Source: Bacillota bacterium
GTDB taxonomy: Bacteria > Bacillota > Clostridia > Peptostreptococcales > Anaerovoracaceae
Length of the DNA: 57,590 bases
Direction of reading: 5' to 3'
Assembly: GCA_017431785.1 (NCBI GenBank)
Contig: JAFRKJ010000016.1
Span: forward strand, 1 to 57,590
Part shown: piece after piece, positions 5,296 to 57,590 of the stretch
Layout: every line of letters begins with the position of its first letter
How positions within the stretch are numbered: position 1 is the first letter of the stretch
Notes under the pieces: generated by a model
The model's input: the letters and a program-made list of their open reading frames with translations, nothing else
What the model was told of the DNA's origin: nothing
The model's database searches: none
Translations under genes and position numbers: made by a program

Positions 5296-5311
5296 TTTGT
5301 TTACCCCTTTC

Positions 5312-8300
5312 TTAGTCCTCTACTACTTCAACATCGGATCCGCTTTCGGCCTTTTCGATTTCCTCGATGTCCTGCTCATTGAGATCGATGATTTCTTCTT
5401 CCTCGATGATTTCGAAGTCTTCACTGTCTTCTACATCTTCCGGCTCTTCTTCATCAAACTCGTCTTCTTCCTCGTCGATTTCCTCGTATTCGGCCTCTTC
5501 CTCAAGTCTTCTGGCATCGATCTCACGGTCTACCATTCTTTCGATAGCAGCAATTCCGTCAGCCTCTGTCTCTTCCTTGATTTCTATTTCTTCGCTGTTC
5601 TCATCAAGCACCTTGATGTCCAGGCAAAGGCTCTGCATCTCCTTGATCAGAACCTTGAAGGACTCAGGAATTCCCGGTTCAGGAATGTTTTCGCCCTTGA
5701 CGATTGCTTCATAAGTCTTAACACGTCCGACGATATCGTCTGATTTGACGGTCAGGATTTCCTGGAGCGTGTATGCTGCACCATATGCTTCCAGAGCCCA
5801 TACTTCCATCTCTCCGAAACGCTGTCCGCCGAACTGGGCTTTTCCGCCGAGCGGCTGCTGCGTTACCAGTGAGTACGGACCAACAGAACGTGCGTGTATC
5901 TTGTCGTCTACCAGGTGGTGGAGCTTGAGCATGTACATGTATCCGACTGTAACAGGATTATCGAAGTACTCTCCTGTTCTGCCATCTCTCAGTCTCAGCT
6001 TACCTGTTTCGCTGAATCCTGTTTCCTCAAGGAGCTTGATGATATCCTTCTCATTAGCTCCGTCGAATACAGGTGTAGCGATGTACCAGTCTTTGCTCTT
6101 GGCTGCCAGTCCGAGATGTACTTCCAGTACCTGTCCTACGTTCATACGTGAAGGAACACCCAGTGGGTTCAGCATGACCTGCAGGGACTGTCCGTCTTCC
6201 AGGAACGGCATGTCGTTTTCAGGAAGGATTCTGGAAATAACACCCTTGTTTCCATGTCTTCCTGCCATCTTGTCGCCAACCTGAATCTTTCTCTTGGTTG
6301 CGATGTATACTCTGACCAGCTTGTTGACTCCCGGTGAGAGTTCGTCTCCGTTCTCTCTTGAGAAGATCTTTACGTCAACAACAATACCAGTCTCTCCGTG
6401 AGGAACCTTGAGAGATGTGTCTCTTACTTCTCTGGCCTTCTCGCCGAAGATCGCTCTTAAGAGTCTCTCTTCTGCTGTCAGCTCAGTCTCGCCCTTTGGT
6501 GTTACCTTTCCGACCAGGATGTCGCCTGAATCAACTTCAGCACCGATTCTTACGATACCTTCTTCATCCAGATCCTTCAGTGCATCCTCGCCGACATTCG
6601 GAATGTCTCTTGTGATTTCTTCCGGTCCAAGCTTTGTATCTCTCGCTTCGGACTCATACTTTTCGATGTGGATGGATGTGAGAACATCCTCCATGATGAG
6701 TCTTTCGTTGAGGATGATAGCATCCTCATAGTTATATCCTTCCCATGTCATGAAGCCGATGAGAAGGTTCTTGCCAAGTGCAACTTCACCGTTTGCTGTT
6801 GAAGGGCCGTCTGCAATGACTTCGCCGGCCTCAACATGTTCGCCCTTGAATACGATCGGTCTCTGGTTGATGCATGTTCCCTGGTTCGATCTCTTGAACT
6901 TGAGAAGTACATGTTCTTCAACACCTTCGCCATCATCTCTGGTAATCTTGATTCTGGTCGCATCGACAAATGATACTGTACCGGAATGCTTGGCAAGCTG
7001 AACAACTCCTGAGTCTCTTGCTGCCTTGTATTCGATACCTGTACCAACCATCGGCGCCTCTGTAACCATGAGTGGTACAGCCTGACGCTGCATGTTCGAT
7101 CCCATCAGAGCACGGTTTGCGTCGTCGTTCTCGAGGAACGGTATCATAGCAGTTGCTACTGATACAACCTGCTTCGGTGAAACATCCATGTAGTCAACAG
7201 CTTCTCTAGGTACCAGGTCGATGTCGCCGCCTTTACCTCTTGCTGCAACCTTCAAGTTGGCGAAGTGACCCTCACTGTCGAGAGGTTCATTTGCCTGAGC
7301 TACGATCTTATCCTCTTCATCATCTGCTGTCAGATAGTGGATCTCTTCTGTAACGATTCCGGTTTCCTTATCTACTACTCTATATGGAGTCTCGATGAAG
7401 CCATACTGGTTGATAACTCCATAAGTAGTCAGGGAACCGATCAATCCGATGTTCGGACCTTCAGGTGTCTCGATAGGACACATTCTTCCATAGTGCGAGT
7501 GATGAACGTCTCTTACCTCAAATCCGGCTCTTTCTCTTGAAAGACCGCCAGGTCCGAGTGCTGAAAGTCTTCTCTTATGAGTCAGCTCTGCAAGAGGGTT
7601 CGTCTGGTCCATAAACTGCGACAGCTGTGAACTTCCGAAGAACTCCTTCACTGCTGCAGTAACTGGTCTGATATTCATCAGGGACTGCGGCGTTACTTCC
7701 GCAATATCCTGTGTGTTCATTCTTTCTTTGATGGTTCTCTCCATTCTGGTCAGACCAATTCTGATCTGGTTCTGGAGAAGTTCACCAACTGTTCTGAGTC
7801 TTCTGTTGCCCAGGTGGTCAATATCGTCAATATTGCCGATGCCGTAGTTGAGGTTCAGCAGATAACTTACAGAAGCAACGATATCTGCAACCAGGATGTG
7901 CTTCGGTGACAGATCGTTCTTGCGCAGTCTGAGGGCTTCCTTCAGTTCGTCCTGTCCTGCATCTGCATTCTCTGCGAGGATTTCCATAAGAACCGGATAG
8001 TAAACTCTCTCTGCGATCTTCAGATCTGAAATATCAAATTCGATGTACTGATCGATATCTACGAACTGGTTTCCGATGACCTTTGTTGACTGTGTTTCAT
8101 CGTAATTGCTGCGAACCTGAACAGAAACGATGCCGGAGTTCTCGATCTGGCGCGCCAGTTCTTTGCTGATGCGCTGTCCCTCTTCAGCCAGAATCTCACC
8201 TGTATTCGGATCTGCTACATCTTCAGCAACAATGTTGCCTGCGAGTCTGTTGTACAGACCCAGCTTCTTGTTGTACTTATATCTTCCGACCTTAGCGAGA

Positions 8301-9103
8301 TCATAACGCTTAGGATCAAAGAACATGGAATTGAAAAGCTGCGTAGCACTTTCAATTGTAGGCGGTTCGCCAGGTCTCAGTCTCTTGTAGATTTCCTTGA
8401 TACCATCTTCATGGTTCTTGGTAGGGTCCTTCTCAAAAGTCCTGTGGATTCTTGGTTCATCTCCGAGAAGCTCTATGATCTCCTCATCTGTACCATAACC
8501 AACGGCTCTGAGAAGAGTCGTAATCGGCTGTTTACGGTTTCTGTCAACTCTAACGGAAAGAACTTCGTTAGAATCTGTTTCATATTCCAACCATGCGCCT
8601 CTGTTAGGAATTACCTGTGTTGAAAACAGGAACTTACCCGACTTATCGATCTCCCTGTCATAGTATGGTCCAGGGGAACGAACGAGCTGAGTAACGACTA
8701 CTCTTTCCGCACCATTGTATATAAAGGTACCCTTCTCAGTCATGAGAGGGAAATCACCCATAAATACTTCCTGGTCTTTTACTTCCTTGATCTCACCGTT
8801 TTCCTTGTTGATCAGTCTTACTTTGACCTTAAGAGGAGCAGCATAGGTAACATCACGTTCCTTACACTCTTCCTGTCCGTACTTCGGAGGATCTGAAAGT
8901 GAATAGTCGATGAATTCGAGAACGAGATTGTCTGAGTATTCCTTGATTGGCGAAACGTCCTCAAAAACCTCACGAAGACCTTCCTCAACAAACCATTTAT
9001 AGGAATCTGTCTGAATCTGAATCAGATTCGGCATCTCCGCCACTTCATTGATTTTTGAGAAGGTCATTCGCTCTGTTCTTCCTAACTTGATAGGATTTGG
9101 CAT
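5312..9103 (-). CDS. rpoB: RNA polymerase subunit beta
   Basis: Catalytic beta subunit, 1263 residues from the ATG at 9103. An upstream in-frame GTG at 9112 overlaps the Shine-Dalgarno (AAGGAG, 9112-9117), so 9103 is the true start. The rifampicin pocket [13 protein letters not shown] (492-504), His509 and Ser514 are of the sensitive type. The beta conserved C-terminal elements are present, up to the segment around [12 protein letters not shown]. The last 90-100 residues form an unusually long, strongly acidic tail. It has its own promoter after the rplL-rpoB hairpin. Confidence 0.98.
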
Positions 9104-9154
9104 TATTATCACTCCTTATAAACTTAACAAACTACAGTTGCAGGGCAATTTAAT

Positions 9155-9183
9155 AATATACCACCGCGTTGTCAAGGTGTCAA
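9155..9183 (-). promoter_or_regulatory. sigma-A promoter of rpoBC
   Basis: TTGACA (9178-9183), 17-base spacer, TATATT (9155-9160) on the minus strand. A second TTGACA lies inside the spacer. The start site would be near 9148, about 45 bases before the rpoB ATG. It lets polymerase genes be made independently of the L10/L12 transcript. Confidence 0.75.
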
Positions 9184-9205
9184 GTTTTTTTGCACACATA
9201 TCATA

Positions 9206-9237
9206 AAGAAACCCTGTGGTCTCCCACAGGGTTTCTT
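9206..9237 (-). terminator. rplL-rpoB intergenic hairpin, probable attenuator
   Basis: A perfect 14-bp stem (9206-9219 with 9224-9237) with a TCTC loop on the plus strand. On the minus strand it is followed by TATGATATG, not by a T run, so full termination is doubtful. A partial attenuator or RNase processing site at this junction is known in other bacteria. It sits just upstream of the rpoB promoter. Confidence 0.6.
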
Positions 9238-9260
9238 AAGCAGTTTGTCTGTGTAACTAA

Positions 9261-9626
9261 TTACTTCAGTTCTACAACAGCGCCTACTTCTTCCAGCTGT
9301 GCCTTCAGTGTTTCTGCTTCGGCCTTCTCGCAGCCTTCCTTTACGTTTGAAGGAGCTCCGTCTACCAGGCCCTTTGCTTCCTTCAGACCAAGACCGGTGA
9401 TCTCTCTTACAGCCTTGATAACCTTGATCTTTTCAGGTCCGATCTCCTTCAGTACTACTGTGAATTCGGACTGTTCTTCTTCAGCTGCTGCTCCGCCGTC
9501 TGCTGCTGCTACAACAACGCCTGCTGCTGCGCTTACGCCAAACTCTTCTTCACATGCTTTTACCAGCTCGTTCAGCTCCAGAACTGACATCTCTTTTATT
9601 GCTTCGATGATCTGATTCTTATCCAT
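9261..9626 (-). CDS. rplL: 50S ribosomal protein L7/L12
   Basis: Stalk protein that recruits translational GTPases, 121 residues. The N-terminal dimerisation domain is followed by an Ala/Gly-rich hinge around residues 36-50 and the C-terminal factor-binding domain with the [18 protein letters not shown] segment. It follows rplJ by 40 bases. The next feature downstream is a hairpin and a new promoter for rpoB. Confidence 0.98.
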
Positions 9627-9666
9627 TTTATTTCTCCTTATTTAATAATAATTCTTAAACTCTTAA

Positions 9667-10167
9667 TTACTCAGCTTTTGCTTCTGCAATCTGTGATACA
9701 ACTCTTGCAAAGTTTGCAATTGGTGACTGGATGCTGCCCATGAACTTGGAGATGAGTGCATCTCTTGATGGGATTGATGCAATCTGCGTGATAGCATCCT
9801 TGTCGTAGTAATCGCCTTCTACGAAGCCGCCCTTGAACTCCATCTTTTTGAATTCCTTGATTGCTTCATTAAGAACTCTCGCCGGTGCTGTAGCATCATC
9901 ATAGCTGAATGCGAATGCACTTGGTCCTTCCAGGACTTCTGCTAATGCTGCGTAATCAGTTCCGTCGATCGCTCTCTTGACGAGTGTGTTCTTGTAAACT
10001 GTGTAGTCGACATTCGCTTCACGGAGCTTTGCTCTCATAGCGTTTGCCTGCTCTACAGTAATACCCATATAATCAACAACTACTGCTGATTCAGCTCTTT
10101 CGAACTTGTCTTTAATTTCGTCAATAACTACCTGCTTTTCAACGAAAGCTTTTTTCATTTCTGACAT
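9667..10167 (-). CDS. rplJ: 50S ribosomal protein L10
   Basis: Base of the ribosomal stalk; it anchors L7/L12 dimers to 23S rRNA. 166 residues with the typical VVVDYMGITVEQANAMRAKL N-terminal segment and an Ala-rich C-terminal helix that binds L12. An AAAGGAG site lies upstream of the start. The preceding 190-base gap carries the L10 leader, where L10-L12 is expected to bind its own mRNA and control expression. Confidence 0.97.
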   Translation of the reverse strand: MSEMKKAFVEKQVVIDEIKDKFERAESAVVVDYMGITVEQANAMRAKLREANVDYTVYKNTLVKRAIDGTDYAALAEVLEGPSAFAFSYDDATAPARVLNEAIKEFKKMEFKGGFVEGDYYDKDAITQIASIPSRDALISKFMGSIQSPIANFARVVSQIAEAKAE

Positions 10168-10189
10168 TTAGCGTCTTTCTCCTTTCGTA

Positions 10190-10345
10190 AGATTTTTTGT
10201 ACGCCGTAAAAAAACCCCATCCTGTTGTCAGACCGAACGGGGAATGTATATTTACATTGTACCTCGGCTGGATTCATTGTTTAAAGGCTTCTTGATAAAA
10301 TCCGCCTTCCAGCTGTCTACGGTCTGTAGTATTCTTTTTTGTAAT
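10190..10345 (-). promoter_or_regulatory. L10 leader (autoregulatory mRNA element)
   Basis: The 189-base gap between rplA and rplJ carries paired segments and ends in a G/C-rich hairpin (CCCC/GGGG, 10215-10242) followed on the minus strand by seven T residues (10208-10214). This matches the known Firmicute L10 leader layout, where L10(L12)4 binding favours the terminator. Exact limits are approximate. Confidence 0.7.
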
Positions 10346-10356
10346 CAGTCTTCAGA

Positions 10357-11052
10357 TTAACCGAGCTTCTGAGGATTGATCTTGACTCCAGGACCCATTG
10401 TTGAAGCAATAACTGCGCTTCTGATGTACTGACCTTTTGCTGCTGCAGGCTTAGCCTTGATAATAGCAGATGCCAGTGCATTGAAGTTCTCACTCAGTTT
10501 CTCTGCGCCGAATGATACCTTACCAATTGGGCAGTGGACGATATTTGTCTTGTCGAGACGGTACTCAACCTTGCCGGCTTTAGTTTCTGCGATTGCCTTT
10601 GCAACATCCATAGTAACTGTGCCTGACTTAGGGTTTGGCATGAGTCCCTTAGGTCCCAGCAGCTTACCAAGTCTTCCTACAACGCTCATCATGTCAGGTG
10701 TTGCAATAACAGCGTCGAAGTCGAACCAGCCTTCTTTCTGGATCTTCTGAGCCATTTCTTCAGCACCTACGTAATCTGCGCCGGCTTCCTCAGCTTCTGT
10801 TGCCTTAGGTCCCTTAGCGAATACCAGTACTCTCTTTGTGTTACCTGTTCCGTTCGGAAGAACAATTGCGCCTCTGATCTGCTGATCTGCGTGTCTTCCG
10901 TCCAGACCCATCTTAAAGTGGGCTTCTACTGTTTCATCGAACTTAGCTTTAGCTGTCTGCAGAACGATGTCCAGTGCCTGATCAACATCATAGAGCTCCT
11001 GCTTGTTGTACAGCTCTGCTGATGCTTTGTAATTCTTACCTCTTTTAGGCAT
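10357..11052 (-). CDS. rplA: 50S ribosomal protein L1
   Basis: L1 forms the mobile stalk near the E site and is a translational repressor of its own operon. The product is 231 residues, the normal length, when started at ATG 11052 ([11 protein letters not shown]), which is preceded by AAAGGAAG. A longer frame to 11076 adds eight residues not seen in the family. Conserved stretches [20 protein letters not shown] and [11 protein letters not shown] are intact. It follows rplK by 73 bases. Confidence 0.96.
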
Positions 11053-47564: not shown

Positions 47565-48416
47565 TCAATAGGTTGTTCCGAAGCCAAATGCCCCTTCGCT
47601 CATACATACCTGCGCGGAAAAATCAGCTCCTTTCCAGGCTGCTGCATTGATGTCTTCCTCAGTCACCTCTGTTCCCTTCCGGTATCCCCTTCTTACCAGT
47701 TCTATCACAAAAGCAGTAAAGAACGAATCGCCGGCGCCCATGGTATCCACAGCATCGACCATCTTTACGCAGCCTGTATATTCCTTTGTCCCATCCCAGA
47801 TGATCTGTCCTTTGGAGCCGTCTGTAATCAGGACTAAGCCAGTACCCAGACTGACTGCCTTCTCACGAACGCGAAGACGTTCTGCTTCATCCATTGACGA
47901 TCCGGAAAACAACGCAATATCGATATGCGGACAGACCGTCTCCAGATACGCATCTGTCCTGTACTCCTCCTCTTCAGAGAAATCATAGGTTTTTACTGCC
48001 TTACAGACATCGAGTTTCACCATCTCTTCCGGCATTTCTCCATAACATCCGCAGTGGATCACATCAAATTGTTCCAGATACGCAATATGTTCATCTTTCA
48101 AGCGAAGCGGTTGCCAAGTCCCTTCTCCAAACTCCACGCCAACGAACACTCTGTCTCCGCTTTTCACGGTCACATCGCATCGCTCCGTCGTGAGACCCTC
48201 CTGCAAAGGCGACATACTGACATCCACACCGAGCGTTTCCAGCGAATCCCTGATAAGACGGCCCTCCGGTTCATCTGCCAGTAGTCCCAGATAGGCGGCA
48301 TCCGCTCCGCACTGTTTCGCATATACCGCGAAGTTGACAGCGTTTCCTCCGGGAAACATGATCCGTCTGTCCGTATAACGATCAACTACATTATCTCCAA
48401 TTCCTATTACGCGCAT
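47565..48416 (-). CDS. PfkB-family kinase, fructoselysine-6-kinase (FrlD)-like
   Basis: A 283-residue ribokinase-fold sugar kinase. The N-terminal GIGDNVVDRY and FPGGNAVNFAVYAKQCG match the FrlD pattern (GDNCVDIYP, GGNAVNVAVY), and the C-terminal DTMGAGDSFFTAFV carries the catalytic Asp. FrlD enzymes phosphorylate fructose-amines at C6. It lies just after the Pot transporter operon but beyond a hairpin terminator, so it may be transcribed by readthrough. ATG 48416 has AGAGGAA upstream. A second such kinase is encoded at 53798. Substrate is inferred. Confidence 0.82.
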   Translation of the reverse strand: MRVIGIGDNVVDRYTDRRIMFPGGNAVNFAVYAKQCGADAAYLGLLADEPEGRLIRDSLETLGVDVSMSPLQEGLTTERCDVTVKSGDRVFVGVEFGEGTWQPLRLKDEHIAYLEQFDVIHCGCYGEMPEEMVKLDVCKAVKTYDFSEEEEYRTDAYLETVCPHIDIALFSGSSMDEAERLRVREKAVSLGTGLVLITDGSKGQIIWDGTKEYTGCVKMVDAVDTMGAGDSFFTAFVIELVRRGYRKGTEVTEEDINAAAWKGADFSAQVCMSEGAFGFGTTY

Positions 48417-48474
48417 TACATTCCTCTTTCTCAAGCATGCTTCTTGTATATACCAGGGTTCATCAAGAGATAAA

Positions 48475-48496
48475 GGCCGCCAAGTGATCGGCGGCC
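48475..48496 (-). terminator. terminator of the Pot-type transporter operon
   Basis: A 7-bp G/C stem (48475-48481 with 48490-48496), extendable with flanking A/T pairs, followed by TTTATC on the minus strand, 25 bases past the binding-protein stop. Moderate strength; readthrough to the kinase gene is possible. Confidence 0.7.
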
Positions 48497-48520
48497 CTTA
48501 TCGTGAAAGTATGGTTTATC

Positions 48521-49636
48521 TTACTCTACTTCTCCTGCCTCAGACTGGAATTTTGTCCAGTATTCGTCATAGATCTTTGCTGCATCGCCAACATCCAGCT
48601 GGAGATAGTAATTGTTCTTCATCTTCTCAGGAAGATTGATTGCAGGGCTGCTCTTGTACTCATCGCTCATAAGATCAAGTGCTGCTGCGTTCGGGCAAGA
48701 TACAACATTACCCTCTTCATCATACATGTACTGGAGATTGGAAGCCATTACATCAGCATCGAGGAGGAAGTTCAGGAATGCTTCTGCATTTTCCTTGTTC
48801 TTTGCTCCTGCAGGAATGACGAATTCATCGACGCCCAGCTGAATAGGATCCTCGTCAAATTCTGCGATAACGATTTCATCTCCGGAACCTGCCTTTGTCT
48901 CGTTGATTGCCTTTGTGACCTGACCGTCAAATACGTATGCAGCTGTTGCACCGCCGTTGATCAGCAGAGTCTCAGGGCTGTCGGAATCAAAGGCAACAAC
49001 GTTCTTGGAGTACTCAAGGCACCATTCATAAGCCTTTTCGATATCAGCTTCTTCCTTGCTGTTAGGATCAAGACCCTGTGCTGCCAGTGCCATTGCGAAC
49101 AGGTTTCTAACACCAGTTACAGATGAAATCTGTCCCTTCATTTCCGGCTTAAGAAGGTCATTGTAGGATGTGATTTCAATTGGGCACTTATCCTTATTAT
49201 AGATGACATATACATAGTTCATCAGATAAGGAATTGCGTATTTGTTTTCCGGGTCGAATTCTCTGTACTTGTACGCATCATCCAGATTATCGAAGTTCGG
49301 CAGATTGTCCAGATTGATCTCTTCCAGATATCCACCTTCGATCAGGGATGTCATGTCAGCATCCGAAGGCATGATCAGGTCATATTCGCTGCCGCCTCCG
49401 CTGGTGATCTTTGCAACTGCTTCTTCAGTTGTGCTCATGTAAGAGAAGTTAACCTTGATTCCAGTTTCTTCTTCAAACTGTTCTGCAAGTGACGGTGCCA
49501 TATATTCTGACCACATATAAATGTTGACCTCACCTGCTTCACCGCTGCTTCCGCCGCATCCGGTCAGCACGCCGCCGGTCAGTGCTGCCATCATTACGAT
49601 CAGCAGAACAGCGATTGATTTTCTGAGCTTCTTCAT
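48521..49636 (-). CDS. Pot-type ABC transporter substrate-binding lipoprotein
   Basis: A 371-residue PotD-like protein. A signal peptide with lipobox LTGC (Cys27) is clear. The mature part starts VNIYMWSEYMAPSLAEQFEEETG, as in spermidine/putrescine and opine-binding proteins, with MPSDADMTSLIEGGYLEEI after it. ATG 49636 has AAGGAGG upstream. In this locus with Amadori-type enzymes, the ligand may be a glycated amine rather than a free polyamine (inference). Confidence 0.9.
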   Translation of the reverse strand: MKKLRKSIAVLLIVMMAALTGGVLTGCGGSSGEAGEVNIYMWSEYMAPSLAEQFEEETGIKVNFSYMSTTEEAVAKITSGGGSEYDLIMPSDADMTSLIEGGYLEEINLDNLPNFDNLDDAYKYREFDPENKYAIPYLMNYVYVIYNKDKCPIEITSYNDLLKPEMKGQISSVTGVRNLFAMALAAQGLDPNSKEEADIEKAYEWCLEYSKNVVAFDSDSPETLLINGGATAAYVFDGQVTKAINETKAGSGDEIVIAEFDEDPIQLGVDEFVIPAGAKNKENAEAFLNFLLDADVMASNLQYMYDEEGNVVSCPNAAALDLMSDEYKSSPAINLPEKMKNNYYLQLDVGDAAKIYDEYWTKFQSEAGEVE

Positions 49637-49713
49637 TTGTTCCTCCTTATTCAATCAACAATAACTAAATGGTAATAACGTTTCTATCTCACCTCTGGCG
49701 AGGTTGTTGAACC

Positions 49714-50559
49714 TTAGAAATATGTTTTTACAGTTCCCATCGAACGCTTTCTCAATGCGGCCTGCACGAGATTGTTCACCAGGATACCCAGGATCAGCAC
49801 CGCAATCATGATTGTCGTCAGCGCGTTGACGTCAGGATGCAGACCCATCTTAACCATGGACAGAATCTTAACCGGCAATGTGGTCGAATACGGTCCCGCC
49901 ACAAAGTTGGTGATGATAACGTCATCGATCGACAGCGTAAATGCCATGAAAGCGCTGGATAACAGACCCGGCACAAGCATCGGCACCGTAATGCGGAAGA
50001 ATGTCTCCAGACGGTTAGCGCCCAGATCCATTGAAGCTTCCTCAACAGATAAATCCATACCTGACATTCGACCTCTCATAATGATGACGACGAACGGCGC
50101 ACAGAATGTGATATGAGCCAATGTTACCGCCGGAAGGCCAAGCGGGAAGTTGCAGATCTGATACAGCATCAGCAGGGAAATACCCATGACGATCTCCGGG
50201 ATGATGACCGGGATATACAGTGAGCTGTTGATCACTTTCTTAAGCATGAATTCGAACCGCATCAGTCCCATAGCTCCCAGCGTACCGATGATGACGGAGA
50301 TGATCGTTGCCAGAACCGCTACGACGAGGGAATTCCAGAGGTATCCCCAAAGTTCTGAGCCACTGAATAATTTTACGTACCACTTGGTGGTAAATCCGAC
50401 CCAATAGTAGTTGTTCAGCTGGTCATTGAATGAGAAGATGACCATAACTGCAATCGGTACGTATATGAACGCATATATGATAGCCGCATAGACATTGCTG
50501 ACTCTTTTCCCGAGTCTTTTGCGCCTGAGCCGTTTGCTGAGTCTTCTGTTCTCTTCCAT
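49714..50559 (-). CDS. Pot-type ABC transporter permease, PotC-like
   Basis: A 281-residue permease with six helices. The EAA loop reads VEEASMDLGANRLETFFRIT and contacts the ATPase. An Arg/Lys-rich N-terminus precedes helix 1. Its ATG overlaps the stop of the PotB-like gene (TGATG). With PotA, PotB and PotD it forms one importer. Confidence 0.93.
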   Translation of the reverse strand: MEENRRLSKRLRRKRLGKRVSNVYAAIIYAFIYVPIAVMVIFSFNDQLNNYYWVGFTTKWYVKLFSGSELWGYLWNSLVVAVLATIISVIIGTLGAMGLMRFEFMLKKVINSSLYIPVIIPEIVMGISLLMLYQICNFPLGLPAVTLAHITFCAPFVVIIMRGRMSGMDLSVEEASMDLGANRLETFFRITVPMLVPGLLSSAFMAFTLSIDDVIITNFVAGPYSTTLPVKILSMVKMGLHPDVNALTTIMIAVLILGILVNNLVQAALRKRSMGTVKTYF

Positions 50560-51422
50560 CAGACCACCTCCAGCTCTTCCAGCTTACCGACCCTCGTGTA
50601 GATCAGCAGCATAGCGATCGTGCTGAACATCAGCAGAATCGCCATCGACGCACCGAACGGCCAGTTCTTTGTCATCAGGAACTGATTCTTGATCAGAGTA
50701 CCTACGAGCATGACTTTGCCACCGCCCAGAACTTCCGGAACCTGATACATTCCAATCGATGGGATGAACACTAGTAAAATGCATCCAACGATGCCTCCCA
50801 TGGTCTGTGGGATCGTCACCTTGCGGAAGGTGGTTACAGAATTTGCTCCCAGATCCTTCGATGCCTCGATCAGTGACTTGTCCATCTTCTCAATAGATGA
50901 ATACAGCGGCAGTACTGAGAATGGGAGCATTGCAGTAAGCAGCCCCATCAACACCATTCCGTCGGTGTATAAAAACTGAATCGGTTCACTGATGATATGC
51001 AGTTTCATCAGGAACAGATTTACAAATCCATTCGGCATTCCGAGCAGATTGACACTGTATAATCTGACAAGGGAATTCGTCCAGTACGGAATCATGACGA
51101 GCAAAAGCCATTTCGCCGCGGATTTCGCAGGCTTTTGCGCGATCCAGTATGCTAACGGATACCCCATGATCAGGCACATCGCTGTCGTCAGGAACGCCAG
51201 TTTGAGAGACTTCCATATGATTTTGAGATACAGCGGCTGCAAAAGCATCGTGTAATTCTCAAAAGTGAAATGCCAGTCGATTCCGCCATAGGTCCCTCTC
51301 GACATGAAGCTGATCACAAACACGTAGACCAAAGGCAGGAGTACGAATATAATCAGCCAGATGGATATCGGTCCTGCGGTGACCATGGCTGGCAGTTTTC
51401 CGCGGATCCCGCTTCTATCCAT
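50559..51422 (-). CDS. Pot-type ABC transporter permease, PotB-like
   Basis: A 287-residue permease with six helices. The EAA loop reads IEASKDLGANSVTTFRKVTI. AGGAGG precedes the ATG at 51422, which lies inside the end of the ATPase gene (8-base overlap). Segment PYWTNSLVRLYSVNLLG fits the family. Confidence 0.93.
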   Translation of the reverse strand: MDRSGIRGKLPAMVTAGPISIWLIIFVLLPLVYVFVISFMSRGTYGGIDWHFTFENYTMLLQPLYLKIIWKSLKLAFLTTAMCLIMGYPLAYWIAQKPAKSAAKWLLLVMIPYWTNSLVRLYSVNLLGMPNGFVNLFLMKLHIISEPIQFLYTDGMVLMGLLTAMLPFSVLPLYSSIEKMDKSLIEASKDLGANSVTTFRKVTIPQTMGGIVGCILLVFIPSIGMYQVPEVLGGGKVMLVGTLIKNQFLMTKNWPFGASMAILLMFSTIAMLLIYTRVGKLEELEVV

Positions 51423-52497
51423 TTGCTACCTCCTGATTTCTGATGCCTGTCGAATCTTCAACATCCCAGTGGAAATACAGCGTATCTCCTTCCTGATAGG
51501 ACCCATCGTATTTCACGCGGTTGATCTTGACATCGTATCCGTTCTCCATCGTAACTAATGTCCTGAACACTGCACCGACGAAGATCATGTTTTTGACTTG
51601 TCCCTTCAGTGTGAATCCATCGACTGGTTCCTTTGAAAAACCAATTGTTTCAGGCCGGATGCACACGTGCGCCTTGTCGCCTACGGCGAACCCTTCCGCC
51701 GGCATTTTGCAGCAGCCGCATTCTGTTTCCAGCGTTGCTTCGTTTCCATCGATTTCGATTACGGTTCCAGAGAAGATATTCGATTCGCCGATAAAATCAG
51801 CGACGAACTTTGTCGCAGGTTTATTGTAGATTTCCTGCGGCGATGCCAGCTGTTCGATGATGCCATCCTTCATGACCGCAATTCTGTCACTCATGGTCAT
51901 GGCTTCCTCCTGATCGTGGGTAACATACACGAACGTAATATTCAGCATCTGCTGCAGTCTCTTCAGCTCGATTTGCATCTGCTTACGCAGTTTCAAATCC
52001 AATGCGCCTAATGGTTCATCAAGGAGCAGCACTTTAGGATTGTTGATCAACGCTCTTGCAATTGCAACACGCTGTTTCTGTCCGCCGGACATGGCATCAG
52101 GCTTTCTGCCTTCAAAGCCCATGAGCTGGACAAGTTCCAGCATTTCTCGGACTCGTTCCTTGATCTCTTCCTTTGGAACTTTTTTAACTTTCAGTCCGTA
52201 CCCTATATTGTCATAGACTGTCATATGAGGGAAAAGAGCATAGCTCTGAAATACGGTGTTAACGTCTCTCTCGTATGCTTCCTTATCCTCAACACGGTCC
52301 CCCTGCACTTCAATGATCCCGTCGGTCGCATCCTCAAATCCCGCAATGAGCCTGAGTGTCGTTGTCTTGCCGCATCCTGACGGACCCAGCAGCGTAAGAA
52401 ACTCACCCTCTTCAATTTCAAGATTGATATCCTTTAGTACATGATTCTCGCCAAAATACTTGTTCACATGTCTCAGGGATACAATTGACTCTGCCAT
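51415..52497 (-). CDS. Pot-type ABC transporter ATP-binding protein, PotA-like
   Basis: A 360-residue ATPase. Walker A GPSGCGKT (38-45), signature MSGGQKQR (136-143), Walker B LLLDEPLGALD, H-loop in VTHDQEEAM, and a C-terminal OB/TOBE domain. That domain has an unusual Cys cluster, ECGCC (Cys260, 262, 263), in a beta turn. It starts 20 bases after the SIS-domain gene and is the first transporter gene of the operon. Confidence 0.94.
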   Translation of the reverse strand: MAESIVSLRHVNKYFGENHVLKDINLEIEEGEFLTLLGPSGCGKTTTLRLIAGFEDATDGIIEVQGDRVEDKEAYERDVNTVFQSYALFPHMTVYDNIGYGLKVKKVPKEEIKERVREMLELVQLMGFEGRKPDAMSGGQKQRVAIARALINNPKVLLLDEPLGALDLKLRKQMQIELKRLQQMLNITFVYVTHDQEEAMTMSDRIAVMKDGIIEQLASPQEIYNKPATKFVADFIGESNIFSGTVIEIDGNEATLETECGCCKMPAEGFAVGDKAHVCIRPETIGFSKEPVDGFTLKGQVKNMIFVGAVFRTLVTMENGYDVKINRVKYDGSYQEGDTLYFHWDVEDSTGIRNQEVANG

Positions 52498-52517
52498 AGC
52501 GTTCTCCTCCGATTTTA

Positions 52518-53528
52518 TTAATACTCGAACTGTCTGTAGTATCTGCGGAATTCAAGACTATGCCCTGTGTTGTACTCATACCAGCAAGCCAGTCTTTCTG
52601 TTACGATCGCTGTCAGAATCATCGGTGAGCAGATGACTCTGAATTCATCGTCGATTCCTTCCAGCTTGAATTCCTTTGTATCGATCACTGTCAGTTTGTC
52701 TGTGAACTTGCTGCAGAATCTTTCTACTCTTTCGTCAAGTGCTCTGTACTCATCCTCTCCTTTGAACAGGAATACCGGCACACCATCTTCTACAAGTTCC
52801 AGAGTTCCGTGGAAGAAGTCTGCCGATGTAACAGACTTTGTGCGTACCCACTGCATTTCTTCGAGTATGCACATGGAGAACAGATACGTTTCTCCCCAAA
52901 GCGCCCCGGAACCGACGAAAATGTTATATGGTTCCCGTGCATATTTCTTAGCGATCTCCTGTGCGCGCGGTTCGAATTCTTCACGGATTCTGAGCAGGTT
53001 CTCGTGAATGCATCCCATCTGTTCCGCAAACTTCGGATAGCTTGGGAAGTCTCCTCTGTCATACAGCATTCTCAGCGTCAGCAGGAAGAACATGATATAT
53101 GTGTCCTCGCAGTCGCCTGTAGTGATCGTTGCTATGTAATCAAGTCTTTTGCCGAGTTCGTTTTCCTTTGATTTTGTAAATCCGGCAATCTGAACGCCCA
53201 TCGCCTTGCACATATCGACTGCTTCAATGATCTCCTTTGTATTGCCTGAGTCCGAAGCTGTCAGGACGATGGAATCCTTTGTCAGATATCTCTTGTCTTC
53301 TTTGATGCAAAACTCTGCAGCATTTTCCAGATATACGGGTACGTCTGTATAGTGACGGAGTACGTGCGCAACCGGATGCCACTCAGCCCAGGTTCCGCCA
53401 ATACCAAGAAGTATGATGTTGCTGTATCCTCTTTCATGGATCGCATCGGCCATTTTCTCTATATCGCCTAACTGCCCATATATCCTTTTCGCATTTTCTC
53501 TGTATGCCTCAGTATCAAATTTTCGCAT
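52518..53528 (-). CDS. SIS-domain protein, fructoselysine-6-phosphate deglycase (FrlB)-like
   Basis: A 336-residue protein with two SIS domains. The first holds LLGIGGTWAEWHPVAHVL and VLTASDSGNTKEIIEAVD; the second holds GSGALWGETYLFSMCILEE and SADFFHGTLELVEDGVPVFLF. The late RRYYRQFEY resembles the FrlB end. FrlB-type enzymes split fructose-amine 6-phosphates into glucose 6-phosphate and the amine. ATG 53528 is chosen; an upstream GTG overlaps the AGAGAGGTG site. It is the first gene of the leftward operon and divergent from a FrlD-like kinase. Confidence 0.85.
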   Translation of the reverse strand: MRKFDTEAYRENAKRIYGQLGDIEKMADAIHERGYSNIILLGIGGTWAEWHPVAHVLRHYTDVPVYLENAAEFCIKEDKRYLTKDSIVLTASDSGNTKEIIEAVDMCKAMGVQIAGFTKSKENELGKRLDYIATITTGDCEDTYIMFFLLTLRMLYDRGDFPSYPKFAEQMGCIHENLLRIREEFEPRAQEIAKKYAREPYNIFVGSGALWGETYLFSMCILEEMQWVRTKSVTSADFFHGTLELVEDGVPVFLFKGEDEYRALDERVERFCSKFTDKLTVIDTKEFKLEGIDDEFRVICSPMILTAIVTERLACWYEYNTGHSLEFRRYYRQFEY

Positions 53529-53621
53529 GTGAATCACCTCTCTTTTCTACTTTAACTGTGTAACAGAATATCAACAGTGGAATGGCATTTCAATAAAATC
53601 AAGGCAAAAAAACACCTACCA

Positions 53622-53709
53622 CTTTTGAGAAACTTATATACCAAAATGTCGTTTGCTATGATAGTTGTAGTTTAATATTCTGATATTTGGGTATTCTCAA
53701 AAGAGTACC
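53622..53709. promoter_or_regulatory. operator-like sites in the divergent frl-type promoter region
   Basis: The 269-base gap between the SIS gene and the kinase has a palindrome at 53690-53709 (arms GGTATTCT/AGAGTACC with one mismatch) and the decamer CTTTTGAGAA at 53622-53631, repeated inverted at 53694-53703. These are candidate sites for the GntR/UTRA repressors encoded at 55931-57422. Confidence 0.45.
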
Positions 53710-53726
53710 AGTTTTCTGCCGTTTGT

Positions 53727-53754
53727 TTGACATGTTTTTTTCAGCTGATATAAG
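53727..53754 (+). promoter_or_regulatory. promoter of the kinase-hydrolase-yjbQ operon
   Basis: TTGACA (53727-53732), 16-base spacer, TATAAG (53749-53754) on the plus strand, 44 bases before the kinase ATG. The operator-like palindrome lies just upstream of the -35. Confidence 0.65.
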
Positions 53755-53797
53755 ATAACTACTGCAAAGAGGTTGTTTTTCAAGGGAGTATTGCTGT

Positions 53798-54628
53798 ATG
53801 AGCAGGATAAAAAAAACAGTCGCCGCTCTTGGCGACAACTGTGTTGATATCTATCCGGATCTTGGCTTATGGTATTGCACCGGCAATGTCGTTGATTTTG
53901 GTGTCCATATGCAAAGATTAGGCATACCCGTTTCCATCATCACCACAACAGGCAATGACAGCTACGGTACTGCCATGCGGGAGTTGTTTCAACGTGAAAA
54001 GCTGGACACCTCACATGTGCAAACTGCGGAAGGCAATACTGCCCGTTCCTATATGAAACTGATAGACAAGGAACGCATTTATGATAAATGGGACGGCGGT
54101 GTCATGGACACCATCTCGTTCAGTAAAGAAGATATTGCCTTTGCAAAATCCCATGATCTGGTTCATTCCGCTATGTGGGGCAACGCCCACATGCATATCC
54201 CTGAGATTCACAACAGCGGCGGTCTGGTCAGCTTTGATTATGCAGATGAATTTCTTTCGGATGGCTTCGACGTTTTCGAACAGACGATTGAGCACGTGGA
54301 TTTCGCCTTCTTTTCTTTTCAGAGAGATGGAGATGAGGCGCGTGATTTTCTGCAGCATGTTGTAGCGCGCGGCCCTAAAATCGCTGTCGCAACATTCGGC
54401 AGCGAAGGCAGCCTGGTTTGGGATGGCACTGTGTTCATCCACTGCGGGATCATGCCGTCGAATCTTGTCAATACGATTGGTGCTGGCGATTCTTATATTG
54501 CCGGGTTCATGCACGGAATTCTCAACGGTATGGACATTGCGGACTGCATGATGCAGGGTGCCAGTGTTGCTGCAGAAACAGTCAGTGTCTTTGGTCCCTG
54601 GTCTGAAAAACAAAAAGGAGGTATTTGA
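53798..54628 (+). CDS. PfkB-family kinase, fructoselysine-6-kinase (FrlD)-like, second copy
   Basis: A 276-residue ribokinase-fold kinase very like FrlD at the start (ALGDNCVDIYPDLG). Two motif positions differ from the other copy: the usual GGN is CTGN (TGN), and the usual DTxGAGD is NTIGAGD, keeping the catalytic Asp. AAGGGAG precedes the ATG. It heads a plus-strand operon with a hydrolase and YjbQ. Substrate specificity may differ from the 47565 copy (inference). Confidence 0.82.
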   Translation: MSRIKKTVAALGDNCVDIYPDLGLWYCTGNVVDFGVHMQRLGIPVSIITTTGNDSYGTAMRELFQREKLDTSHVQTAEGNTARSYMKLIDKERIYDKWDGGVMDTISFSKEDIAFAKSHDLVHSAMWGNAHMHIPEIHNSGGLVSFDYADEFLSDGFDVFEQTIEHVDFAFFSFQRDGDEARDFLQHVVARGPKIAVATFGSEGSLVWDGTVFIHCGIMPSNLVNTIGAGDSYIAGFMHGILNGMDIADCMMQGASVAAETVSVFGPWSEKQKGGI

Positions 54629-54632
54629 CGAT

Positions 54633-55505
54633 ATGAAAACGCCCGTCATCGATATTCACGCACATCCATGGCTCTTCGAGGATGTATGTACCACAGAAGA
54701 ACAGGAGGCCTTTGTGATAGATATGACCGGACTCTACAGGTCCGGATCTTTTCCAGCTGAAGAGCACTTCATTCAAATGGATTACAACGGCGTAGATAAA
54801 TGTGTACTGCTTCCGCTGGATCTGACCACAACACATGGGGGCAGCCTCGGAACCAATGAGCAAGTCCGTGCATTGCAGGATGCTTTTCCTGACAGGTTCA
54901 TCGGCTTCGCAAGTGTGGATCCGTTCAGGGATGACGCATGTGATGTCCTGGAACATGCTTTTGGCACACTGAAGCTCTCCGGATTGAAACTGCACCCTGG
55001 GAAACAGCGTTTTTACCCTTCCGATGAAAGACTTGAATCCATTTGGCAGATTTGTGAGAAGTACAATAAACCGGTCATGTTCCACGCAGGAATGTCCGTA
55101 GAGCCATACACTCTTTCGAAGTATTCTCATCCGATGGAGTTCGAAGAACTGGCATACAATCATCCGAACCTTCGTATCTGCCTGGCACACATGGCCTGGC
55201 CGTGGGTCAAAGAGGCCTGCATGCTCATGTTGAAATACGGCAATGTCTTTGCTGATACTGCCTGCCTTTATTTCGATTCCGCCCGCGAATTCTATGACCA
55301 GGTGCTGACAAAGGATATCCCTATCACCTGGGTTGACCGGGGACTTCGCCATCAGATCATGTTCGGCACCAACGACCCGAGGCTTGAAGCGATAAGAATG
55401 AAAAAGGCTTTGGAGGCACTGCCGCTTCGCCCTTCCACAAAAGAACTGATTATGGGAGGCAACGCGCTGGTATTTTTAGGACTGGAGGAATATACACGTG
55501 ATTGA
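54633..55505 (+). CDS. metal-dependent amidohydrolase-type TIM-barrel protein
   Basis: A 290-residue amidohydrolase-2-like protein. Metal ligands in order: HAH (His9, His11), His151 (VMFHAGMS), His186 (LAHMAWPW) and Asp248 (FGTNDPR), with KLHPGKQ near 119-125. Members hydrolyse or decarboxylate small cyclic or amide substrates. I start at ATG 54633 (MKTPVIDIHAHPW), with AAAGGAGG upstream; the longer frame from 54558 overlaps the kinase. It overlaps yjbQ by 8 bases. The substrate is unknown; an amide or lactam of the imported compound is plausible (inference). Confidence 0.85.
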   Translation: MKTPVIDIHAHPWLFEDVCTTEEQEAFVIDMTGLYRSGSFPAEEHFIQMDYNGVDKCVLLPLDLTTTHGGSLGTNEQVRALQDAFPDRFIGFASVDPFRDDACDVLEHAFGTLKLSGLKLHPGKQRFYPSDERLESIWQICEKYNKPVMFHAGMSVEPYTLSKYSHPMEFEELAYNHPNLRICLAHMAWPWVKEACMLMLKYGNVFADTACLYFDSAREFYDQVLTKDIPITWVDRGLRHQIMFGTNDPRLEAIRMKKALEALPLRPSTKELIMGGNALVFLGLEEYTRD

Positions 55506-55926
55506 GCATAATGAAATACAGATCATGACAACTGAATACAATACGTTCATCAGAATCACTGAAAAGGTCCGTGATATCGTTTCAAACAGCAAAATCAAAA
55601 ACGGCGTAGTGTATGTAATCACAGCCCATACAACAACCGGCATCGCTGTGAATGAGGGATTGGAATGTCTGGAAAGTGATATCCATGACTTGCTCAGCAA
55701 TCTGGTTCCGGAAGATGGAAACTACGCTCATGCGCGTTTTCTGCACTCCTACGGAGCTATGGGAAACAACCCGACTGGTCATCTGAAATCTCATCTGACG
55801 GGAAACCACTGCGTCTTCCCGATTGCAGACGGAACAATCCGTCTCGGCAAAGCGCAGGAAATCTACCTGTGTGAATTTGACGGACCACAGGACAGAACGG
55901 TATACATTACATTGATGGGTGAATGA
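55498..55926 (+). CDS. YjbQ/UPF0047 family protein
   Basis: A 142-residue YjbQ-family protein. The family core VITAHTTTGIAVNEGLE, NPTGHLKSHLTGNHCVFPI and IYLCEFDGPQDRTVYI is intact, including the buried His residues that could bind a metal. The start is GTG 55498 inside the hydrolase gene with GGAGG upstream. Some members show weak thiamin-phosphate synthase activity; no role in an Amadori locus is known to me. It ends 4 bases from the convergent GntR gene. Confidence 0.9.
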   Translation: MIEHNEIQIMTTEYNTFIRITEKVRDIVSNSKIKNGVVYVITAHTTTGIAVNEGLECLESDIHDLLSNLVPEDGNYAHARFLHSYGAMGNNPTGHLKSHLTGNHCVFPIADGTIRLGKAQEIYLCEFDGPQDRTVYITLMGE

Positions 55927-55930
55927 TAGA

Positions 55931-56680
55931 TTATCTGGAATCCAGATTCAGTTCGAACATATCACATCTGGCAAACATCTCCGTATATTCAACAACACGG
56001 TTATCTTTGTCAAATCCGATGAATTTGCAGGAATAAACAGGTACATTTTCAGGGAGCGCCATATAAGTGCGCTCTCTTTCTATGATTTCAACAATCTGTA
56101 TGATCTCGTTGAATCTTACAGGCATATGGTTTTTACTGTCCATGTACTGGTACAGTGAATTTGCTGCAAAGTCCACAGTATCGATATCTTCAAAAAGCTC
56201 TGCCGGAACATAGGTATACTCCAATGCAACCGGAATCCCATTGCCGCACCGAACCCTATGAAGCGCGTAAACCGGAGCATCTTCTTCAAGTTGGAGCTTA
56301 TGGGTGAAAAAGCTGCCGGTGATAATGCCTTTGGTCAAAACAATACTGGAAGCAACACCTCCAACTCTTTCTACTAAAGATGTAATACCTCCATCAATAT
56401 GATCCGTCAGCCGCCTGAATTCCAGTCTTCCCAGATCGGCTTCTTTCACAAAAGTACCCGCCCCGTGTGAACGGACGATCAATCCATCCTTTGCAAGTTT
56501 TTGGAACGCGTACTGTACAGTCGCCCTTGTTGTACCATACTTGCTTGCCAGATAACGTTCAGAAGGCAGCTTCTCTCCCGGCCGCCAAATGCCCCCTTTT
56601 ATCTGCGACCTGATCTGACAAACTACTTCAGACGCCGTTGCCTTTTTCTTTTCTTTTATCTCATCAGATGTCGACTTCAT
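55931..56680 (-). CDS. GntR/HutC-family transcriptional regulator with UTRA domain
   Basis: A 249-residue repressor. The GntR winged helix (about 18-78) has WRPGEKLPSERYLASKYGTT and FVRSHGAGTFV-like ends; the UTRA ligand domain follows (YALHRVRCGNGIPVALEYTY). This is the FrlR-type layout. It is convergent with the yjbQ gene and overlaps the second GntR gene by 17 bases. It probably senses a phosphorylated sugar-amine (inference). Confidence 0.88.
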   Translation of the reverse strand: MKSTSDEIKEKKKATASEVVCQIRSQIKGGIWRPGEKLPSERYLASKYGTTRATVQYAFQKLAKDGLIVRSHGAGTFVKEADLGRLEFRRLTDHIDGGITSLVERVGGVASSIVLTKGIITGSFFTHKLQLEEDAPVYALHRVRCGNGIPVALEYTYVPAELFEDIDTVDFAANSLYQYMDSKNHMPVRFNEIIQIVEIIERERTYMALPENVPVYSCKFIGFDKDNRVVEYTEMFARCDMFELNLDSR

Positions 56681-57422
56681 TGCTGAAAAACTCCACCTTT
56701 TCCTTTAACAATATGTCATCATAGTATTCAATCAGCCTGCCTTCGCTGTCAAACACAATTCCCTCATACCGCATGACCGGTTTTTTCATGTCGATATTCA
56801 ACAGTTCCGATTCCAGTCCATTCGCATATACAGCTGTGATTCTCGTGTAGGCTCTTTTCATTTTGATGCCGTACTTATCGTTGAGCATTTTATAGATAGA
56901 ACGGTCATGAACATCTTCTTCTTTCAGATCCGGCGTAAGATCGCACTGGATATTTGTACGCTCGATAGCGATTGGTTCCCCATCGACAAAACGCAGCCGC
57001 ATGATCCGGTATACATGCACGTCCGGTGATAGCTCGCTGCGGACTGAATTATCTTCCGCAGACATTTCTTCCGCTTTTTCCAGCACTTTTTCCGGAATAA
57101 TCGTCTTTTCAAAACTAAGAAGCTTGACAAATGCTTTCTTGCCGCTCTGCTTAATGATATTTCTTCTGGAATTATACTGATCTTTATCGAAACGTATTCT
57201 GGATGCCGCTACGTAATAACCGGAACGGTCTCTCGCCTCAATCAGTCCTCTGTCGATCAATAACTGCAACGCATTCCTGATTGTTCCACGCTGCACATCA
57301 AACTGGTCCGCAAGCAGACGTTCAGACGGAAGCTTGTCACCTTCTCCGAACATCCCGGTTTCAATCATATATTCAATTTCTCTGGATATCAAAACATCCT
57401 TTGTCAAAATTGTCTTTCTCAT
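56664..57422 (-). CDS. GntR/HutC-family transcriptional regulator with UTRA domain, second copy
   Basis: A 252-residue paralogue. The winged helix has FGEGDKLPSERLLADQFDVQRGTIRNAL-type sequence with the LPSERLL core; the UTRA domain has VYRIMRLRFVDGEPIAIERT. ATG 57422 is the family start, but no good Shine-Dalgarno lies before it and a terminal element begins about 20-35 bases upstream. The element may have removed its promoter. A GTG at 57461 would start within the element and is less likely. Confidence 0.85.
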   Translation of the reverse strand: MRKTILTKDVLISREIEYMIETGMFGEGDKLPSERLLADQFDVQRGTIRNALQLLIDRGLIEARDRSGYYVAASRIRFDKDQYNSRRNIIKQSGKKAFVKLLSFEKTIIPEKVLEKAEEMSAEDNSVRSELSPDVHVYRIMRLRFVDGEPIAIERTNIQCDLTPDLKEEDVHDRSIYKMLNDKYGIKMKRAYTRITAVYANGLESELLNIDMKKPVMRYEGIVFDSEGRLIEYYDDILLKEKVEFFSNEVDI

Positions 57423-57439
57423 ATTCTGTATTTTACCAT

Positions 57440-57590
57440 ATCCGATTGAAATCGGTGCCACCCGTAAAACGGGTGGTTCGAACCGGGGCTATAAGCCCCT
57501 GACACTGACCCGCGCCTAAAGACGCGGGTTTCACTTCGTTCAAGCCTCAGTGTCTTTGTCTCTTTGGCAAGCCCCTAAAGGGGCTTTCTA
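57440..57590. mobile_element. dense hairpin cluster at window edge, possible end of an IS200/IS605- or OMEGA-type element
   Basis: At least four hairpins lie in 150 bases: 57458-57464 with 57470-57476 (7 bp); 57485-57490 with 57494-57499; 57508-57514 with 57523-57529, enclosed by GACACTGA (57501-57508) and TCAGTGTC (57547-57554); and 57569-57576 with 57579-57586. A self-complementary GGTTCGAACC lies at 57475-57484. This density is typical of transposable-element ends with folded RNA such as TnpB or IscB omega RNA. No transposase or nuclease gene is visible, as the window ends. Orientation is unknown. Confidence 0.45.

Follow-up and report, generated by a model that had tools for sequence, protein, structure and literature searches.

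The 57,590-nucleotide contig JAFRKJ010000016.1 (assembly GCA_017431785.1, 81% complete; the whole contig is called the window here) comes from an uncultured clostridial bacterium of the Anaerovoracaceae and carries, between positions 47565 and 57461, a gene cluster that we interpret as a locus for acquiring fructosamines (Amadori products), with an added second cassette that would widen its range. We give this reading as a whole a probability of about 0.62. The novelty lies in the cassette, which consists of a kinase, an Amidohydro_2-fold protein (AMH) and a YjbQ protein, whereas the base plan is that of a known type of fructosamine locus. All named genes are uninterrupted open frames. By Pfam and NCBIfam they comprise a PfkB kinase, PotD/C/B/A-type ATP-binding cassette (ABC) transporter genes and a SIS gene on the minus strand, then PfkB kinase, Amidohydro_2 and YjbQ genes on the plus strand, and finally two GntR-UTRA genes on the minus strand. 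The gene set is present as the initial annotation described it, with the starts of AMH and gntR2 now corrected, and runs in this order:

47565 to 48434, minus strand: FrlD2, a PfkB-family kinase (PF00294, 89.4 bits; likely true start ATG at 48416)
48521 to 49654, minus strand: PotD-type binding lipoprotein of an frl-linked subfamily (SBP_bac_8; PotD model 172.5 bits, cut-off 582)
49714 to 50559, minus strand: PotC-type permease (BPD_transp_1; 254 bits, cut-off 326)
50559 to 51422, minus strand: PotB-type permease (BPD_transp_1; 284.2 bits, cut-off 348)
51415 to 52497, minus strand: PotA-type ATPase with TOBE_2 (TIGR01187 377.7 bits, cut-off 355.6; PotA equivalog 431.8 bits, cut-off 482)
52518 to 53537, minus strand: SIS-domain protein, likely a phospho-fructosamine deglycase (closest PDB entries 2a3n and 8glr)
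53538 to 53797, no strand assigned: divergent promoter region with the inverted repeat GGTATTCT-CAAA-AGAGTACC, a candidate operator
53798 to 54628, plus strand: FrlD1, fructoselysine-6-kinase family (NCBIfam NF007321, 311.9 bits, cut-off 247)
54633 to 55505, plus strand: AMH, an Amidohydro_2-fold protein (PF04909, 106 bits, cut-off 26.4; HHHH plus Asn at ligand-type columns)
55498 to 55926, plus strand: YjbQ of a cassette-specific clade (UPF0047; TIGR00149, 114 bits, cut-off 67.75)
55931 to 56680, minus strand: GntR/UTRA regulator 1, gntR1 (Pfam)
56664 to 57461, minus strand: GntR/UTRA regulator 2, gntR2 (UTRA 96.4 bits, GntR 59.5 bits)

By a mechanical rule the AMH frame opens at 54558; translation probably starts at the ATG at 54633, 4 bases past the kinase stop, and gntR2 may start at 57461. 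The inverted repeat between the SIS gene and frlD1 would suit a GntR regulator, and a related locus, L023, has GGTATT...AATACC in the same place.

Tests of conservation place the gene arrangement of the window far beyond chance. We surveyed relatives of the AMH at E<=1e-60 in the family and class of the window and at 1e-80 in the families of Olsenella porci and of a Lachnospiraceae metagenome-assembled genome (MAG); weaker relatives were left unused, except two (L158 and L159) that were read. The window's family yielded relatives in 12 of 349 genomes and its class in 5 of 391 (the window's own genome counted in both); for the Olsenella family the figure was 17 of 140 and for that of the Lachnospiraceae MAG 19 of 397, so that the distribution is patchy. 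Hosts include Olsenella porci (L026), an uncultured Ruthenibacterium (L025) and the Lachnospiraceae MAG (L027), and two cassettes are plasmid-borne, on Enterococcus faecium DO plasmid 2 (L134) and on pMEGANia of Niallia taxi. The nearest named kin of the window locus are the uncultured Clostridiales MAGs RUG10876 and SIG260. We mapped 54 of 55 AMH places, one genome (G305) not beyond its small locus, and omitted L028, where 22 residues matched; many of the mapped loci are close kin, and the counts that follow are not counts of independent events. AMH is followed on its own strand by a full-length YjbQ in 53 of the 54 loci, and 47 have a FrlD-cluster PfkB kinase no more than 1.2 kb away (the kinase of L023 is masked by an overlapping open reading frame in the locus map, though visible in a separate comparison). 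Where more than 6 kb is in view on both sides (38 loci), 34 have a FrlD-cluster kinase, 29 a SIS gene within 9.5 kb and 26 at least two kinases. Five of eight cassette-locus kinases scanned score over the NCBIfam FrlD cut-off (window FrlD1, L026, L029, L134 and L135). The search proposed in the initial annotation thus bore out its gene set: the kinase-AMH-YjbQ group does occur beside SIS and a Pot importer and is conserved. That annotation also knew of no described locus with this set, and in the open-access literature (supplements and subscription papers lying outside its scope) we likewise found no description of a kinase-AMH-YjbQ set or of a Pot-type fructosamine importer.

The AMH and one clade of YjbQ travel together. 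In the family of Olsenella, an AMH search and a separate search with a cassette-YjbQ profile matched the same 17 of 140 genomes with 18 copies each, at neighbouring positions throughout, including the one genome with two copies. Some YjbQ-type match was present in 199 of the 299 genomes of a phylum sample, and a match at cassette level (at least 198 bits) in two, the window and G1340 forming a 242/198-bit pair, with the next match at 123.6 bits; G1340 also carries kinase-AMH-YjbQ. Around ordinary high-scoring YjbQ genes, AMH, FrlD or SIS genes occurred within about 1.5 kb in 0 of 28 loci. A maximum-likelihood tree, built on few columns and with Niallia on a long branch, parts 56 cassette YjbQ from 31 ordinary ones by a single branch (98/84). 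No AMH-YjbQ fusion was recognised, the long open reading frames that span both (e.g., in L107 and L025) having starts called too far upstream.

The residues of the cassette YjbQ point the same way. Ordinary YjbQ (UPF0047; PDB 1ve0, 2p6c, 1xbf) has H44, D61, H78, N91, H95, D128 and G129 common to five comparators; in the cassette proteins H44, T46, N52, E53, D61, H78, N91, H95, D128 and R133 are invariant. The cassette clade differs in an inserted stretch with L82 and a YG pair, in Gly for Ala at 94, in Ala for Trp at 119 (Ala94 and Trp119 being present in all five comparators) and in C57 and E59, as well as in its separate branch. Among 55 cassette rows, L82 and G86 occur in all, Y85 and G94 in 54, and A119, C57 and E59 in 53. 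Because the invariant set from H44 to R133 and the clade-specific residues are both kept, cassette YjbQ looks catalytically intact and specialised. Mirror-tree correlations over 42 dereplicated loci of 50 were 0.81 for AMH-YjbQ, 0.74 for AMH-kinase and 0.63 for YjbQ-kinase; these values include shared species history and are no more than suggestive. One of the weaker relatives, in L159 (8394 to 9743), resembles AMH (PF04909), looks intact in its ligand pattern and is encoded directly beside an ordinary YjbQ, with no FrlD or SIS match in the 18 kb stretch. Because it pairs an AMH-like protein with an ordinary YjbQ, the AMH-YjbQ pairing may predate the association with FrlD.

Within the window's own surroundings, the cassette looks like an insertion. 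Seven congener loci (L221-L223, L225-L228) hold frlD2-gntR2-gntR1-SIS-potABCD on one strand, the gntR2-gntR1 pair included, without AMH or YjbQ; in the window, by comparison, FrlD1-AMH-YjbQ separates gntR1 from SIS and runs the other way, and frlD2 follows potD. Neither AMH nor YjbQ was present, within the stretch fetched, in any of nine congener potABCD loci (L220-L228; eight with SIS in view). Since the seven loci hold the same genes without those of the plus strand, an inserted kinase-AMH-YjbQ cassette plus a relocated frlD2 would be the simplest reading.

Elsewhere the cassette keeps varied company. Six kinds of transporter lie beside it: Pot (window and L031), APC (PF13520), DcuC (PF03606), amino-acid ABC (SBP_bac_3), Opp/Dpp and ribose. 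Further genes, each labelled from one scanned representative per cluster, encode FrlC-like TIM barrels (PF01261), a second amidohydrolase (PF07969), FGGY kinases, BtpA-family proteins and HyuA/HyuB. The FGGY kinase and BtpA-family protein recur in 17 and 14 of the 54 loci by cluster, for example at L026 13203-15619, at L031 11304-13653 and in several of L098-L106. HyuA-like genes stand near the cassette in L027 (11328-15273, HyuA and HyuB by Pfam) and, by cluster, in L120 and L054, a hint that in some hosts the amine part may be of a lactam, hydantoin or oxoproline type. In E. faecium (L134) the cassette genes are accompanied by an APC permease, GntR, frlD, GntR and SIS, on a plasmid with insertion sequence elements and resistance genes; the AMH is annotated there as 208 amino acids with its start missing, and a beta-galactosidase gene lies downstream.

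The genes of the locus support the Amadori-type, fructoselysine-like plan of the initial annotation, with FrlD-type kinases, a SIS protein, an importer and GntR/UTRA genes. FrlD1 clears the curated FrlD cut-off. By sequence the SIS protein best matches PDB 2a3n and 8glr (314 bits each), and after them 3eua (127 bits), an entry named fructose-aminoacid-6-phosphate deglycase. We take 3eua to be FrlB of Bacillus subtilis, and 2a3n/8glr presumably represent the Salmonella GfrF/FrlB type. Fold and relatives fit a phospho-fructosamine deglycase, which is the likely function of this protein, although we do not file it as FrlB.

Compared with known systems, the locus shares the kinase, SIS deglycase, importer and repressor described for Escherichia coli frlABCDR and B. 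subtilis frlBONMD in the accounts cited (PMC12735817, PMC12632257). It departs from them in its Pot-type importer, its SIS protein below the FrlB model, its AMH-YjbQ pair and its lack of FrlC; a FrlC-like gene (287 bits, cut-off 305) is found instead in a second locus of the same genome. Against the gfrABCDEF system of Salmonella and Enterococcus, which has a phosphotransferase system (PTS), GfrE and GfrF, the window has cytoplasmic kinases and no PTS family among the proteins scanned, and its SIS protein, with a 314-bit match to 2a3n/8glr, may or may not be of the GfrF type. The locus works like frl and gfr, and because its SIS protein falls short of the FrlB model and no PTS family was seen, it is filed as neither FrlB-type nor gfr. 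The Intestinimonas AF211 cluster AF_00949-00955 has a kinase, a deglycase and an ABC importer (AF_00952-00955), and its description, as far as the passage on this cluster goes, names no transporter class, AMH or YjbQ (PMC4697335).

Based on these observations, we propose the following scheme. The Pot-type importer would bring in a glycated amine or amino acid, the FrlD-type kinases would phosphorylate its sugar at C6, the SIS enzyme would cleave the 6-phosphate, releasing a hexose 6-phosphate and the amine, and the GntR/UTRA proteins would repress the locus until a phosphorylated intermediate binds, all as expected from family knowledge; this chemistry of import, C6 phosphorylation and deglycation is that described for E. 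coli FrlD/FrlB and Salmonella Gfr (PMC12735817, PMC12675984). FrlD1 would then phosphorylate a ketosamine beyond the reach of the base locus, and YjbQ, with AMH as a companion or pocket-supplying subunit, would convert the phosphorylated ketosamine or a derived ketose 6-phosphate into a product usable by glycolysis or by the SIS enzyme. The phosphorylated product of the nearby kinase is our proposed substrate for AMH-YjbQ on two grounds: irrespective of the transporter, the third gene is usually a PfkB sugar kinase, and 9 of the 38 well-covered loci have no SIS gene within 9.5 kb; that the pair acts on a phosphorylated ketosamine is a guess. YjbQ has been listed as an alternative thiamine condensation enzyme and described as a suppressor of a pdxB block (PMC5613172, PMC7954711), and both effects involve small phosphorylated compounds. 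Tentatively, then, cassette YjbQ and a metal-site-shedding AMH might form a new two-part enzyme on phosphorylated ketosamines or ketose phosphates, carrying out a deglycation distinct from that of SIS; we hold this specific proposal to be possible, though less likely than not.

We considered whether AMH-YjbQ could instead be a damage-control pair against toxic or dead-end side products of fructosamine phosphorylation, such as deoxyosones or mis-phosphorylated sugars. Such a role would suit a pair that accompanies kinases whatever the transporter, congeners that run the base locus without it, and a protein known by weak or promiscuous effects in the literature passages on YjbQ (PMC7954711, PMC5613172). 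However, base loci with the same kinases should then need the pair too, and the nine congener loci lack it, though it is possibly encoded elsewhere in those genomes; we regard this account as rather unlikely.

The nature of AMH bears on a second alternative, in which it acts as an ordinary metal-dependent hydrolase or lactonase, cleaving an amide, peptide or lactone in the substrate (a glycated amide or an opine-like lactone, for instance) either ahead of the kinase step or following it, with YjbQ as a helper. The initial annotation had called AMH a TIM-barrel hydrolase. The PF04909 match upholds the family, and HyuA/HyuB or a second amidohydrolase (PF07969) in several loci would agree with hydrolysis. 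We tabulated residues for 54 rows (those of the mapped loci except the L052 fragment, with Niallia added and the 5'-truncated E. faecium AMH left out) at columns that we take to be the metal-ligand pattern of the superfamily, namely HxH, two further His and the last-strand Asp. All four His are kept in 32 of 54, 24 of which, the window among them, have HHHH with Asn; in the other 22 at least one metal-type His is lost while the gene order with YjbQ stays intact. The last-strand Asp, normally catalytic in this superfamily, aligns in 12 of 54 and is missing in 42, including the window, where an Asp follows one residue after the aligned Asn and the Asn assignment rests on the alignment. Among PDB sequences AMH matched 3irs alone (BB4693, uncharacterised; 45.9 bits), which agrees in family, whereas cassette AMH is often without the ligand-type residues; no NCBIfam family matched. 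Because ligand residues are often lost and gene order is kept, we do not treat AMH as a standard amidohydrolase. The label "hydrolase" is doubtful, AMH may rather be a YjbQ companion or a metal-independent enzyme, and a conventional hydrolase seems to us unlikely.

The importer was the reason that the initial annotation looked toward polyamines and opines. Matches in a PotD search of 120 genomes split into two score classes, with 18 places scoring at least 326 bits and 38 scoring at most 178.5 bits, and we fetched 14 of the former and 6 of the latter; the remaining four subfamily places comprise the window, the second locus of its genome and two nearly identical copies (G008, G014). By these scores the window PotD and its near kin stand apart as a group of their own. 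A SIS gene adjoins potABCD (as SIS-potABCD or potABCD-SIS) in 13 of 14 subfamily loci and an FrlD-type kinase is present in 12 of 14, the shortfall being L220, which begins at a contig end and has no kinase, and L224, on a short contig, with neither; SIS or FrlD was found in 0 of 6 ordinary Pot operons. At Y85, D168, E171 and W255, which together with Q327 we take as positions where E. coli PotD contacts spermidine, all 16 proteins of the subfamily (window, second locus and 14 relatives) have Ala, Gly, Asn and Gly, respectively, and keep Gln at Q327. None of the six ordinary PotD has the four changes together, and all six keep Tyr at 85, Asp at 171 and an aromatic residue at 255. The window protein retains the residue types of W34, E36, Y37, S83, D257 and Q327. 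The four Pot proteins score under the PRK PotA/B/C/D equivalog cut-offs, and PotA clears the broader subfamily TIGR01187. The window assembly has two PotD-like genes (E<=1e-5), both in frl-type loci; the second (L157, on contig 8 of the same genome, 6365 to 10047) reads PotD-SIS-FrlC-like-FrlD, its FrlD at 304 bits (cut-off 247), and the stretch fetched, where the contig stops at potD, contains no AMH or YjbQ. Because the subfamily neighbours SIS and FrlD, has changed contacts and recurs in a second frl-type locus, the window's Pot-type importer is very likely one for fructosamines. Relative to the polyamine importer PotABCD, the window thus has the same gene set, family and a partial site, but different site residues and SIS/FrlD neighbours.

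These data also bear on the idea that the substrate is a glycated polyamine or opine-like compound whose amine end is bound by PotD. The PotD fold and the site residues partly retained in the window protein are compatible with it; the altered Y85A, D168G, E171N and W255G types, found throughout the subfamily and in no ordinary PotD, and the occurrence of the same cassette with amino-acid, peptide and sugar transporters, speak against it, and no opine oxidase or cyclase-type enzyme was found among the 11 locus proteins scanned against Pfam. We consider such a substrate improbable. The importer as a pointer to polyamines or opines was set aside after the binding-site and neighbourhood comparison: in this genus the subfamily adjoins SIS/FrlD even without the cassette, its PotD is changed at spermidine contacts, and the cassette occurs beside APC, DcuC, amino-acid ABC, Opp/Dpp and ribose-type transporters in other genomes. 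That the Pot genes are an ordinary polyamine importer merely beside unrelated sugar genes is very improbable given SIS beside potABCD in 13 of 14 subfamily loci and the changed site residues, even though the best named matches are PotA-D.

Several observations weigh against the reading of the locus as a fructosamine system with an added cassette. The initial annotation counted two FrlD-like kinases and an FrlB-like deglycase, and saw proteins outside the FrlD and FrlB clades as telling against it. On curated cut-offs FrlD1 lies inside; FrlD2, although FrlD is its best NCBIfam model, scores 166.9 bits against 247, and the SIS protein, fitting in fold and relatives, scores 88.4 bits against the FrlB equivalog cut-off of 430. 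Among other cassettes, the near relative L024 (MAG SIG260; 1340 to 1993) has a yjbQ match of about 43 residues beside gntR1, a deletion or an assembly fault, and the nine loci without SIS have been mentioned. The L027 kinase falls under the FrlD cut-off (218 versus 247), and those of L055 and L056 match tagatose kinase best (252 and 253 bits, cut-off 420). L055 (about 3600 to 11000; L056 is alike) encodes this tagatose-kinase-like PfkB, AMH, YjbQ and a LacI-family regulator, followed by a glycyl radical enzyme (TIGR01774, 662.6 bits, cut-off 678.2), a radical-SAM protein and a gene of the transaldolase/fructose-6-phosphate-aldolase family, with no SIS nearby. Because of the kinases of L055/L056 and L027 and the glycyl radical enzyme of L055, the substrate need not be a fructosamine in every host. 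For AMH, 8 of 54 have the full HHHH plus Asp and some may be ordinary metal enzymes. As for the importer, the ordinary PotD comparators themselves depart from E. coli (Ser or Asn at D168, Asp at E171, Phe at Q327), and their carriage of polyamines is presumed.

Amadori products form when food is heated (PMC9749803), and which bacteria import them, and by which importer, matters for diet studies focused on frlD; our results indicate that a PotABCD annotation can mark a likely fructosamine importer. YjbQ was still listed as of unknown function in the part of a 2021 review that treats it (PMC7954711). The tight association of one YjbQ clade with a partner, and in most cases with a kinase whose chemistry is known, narrows the range of substrates and makes the function testable. 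If the proposed two-part enzyme exists, it would be the first physiological role for any YjbQ protein.

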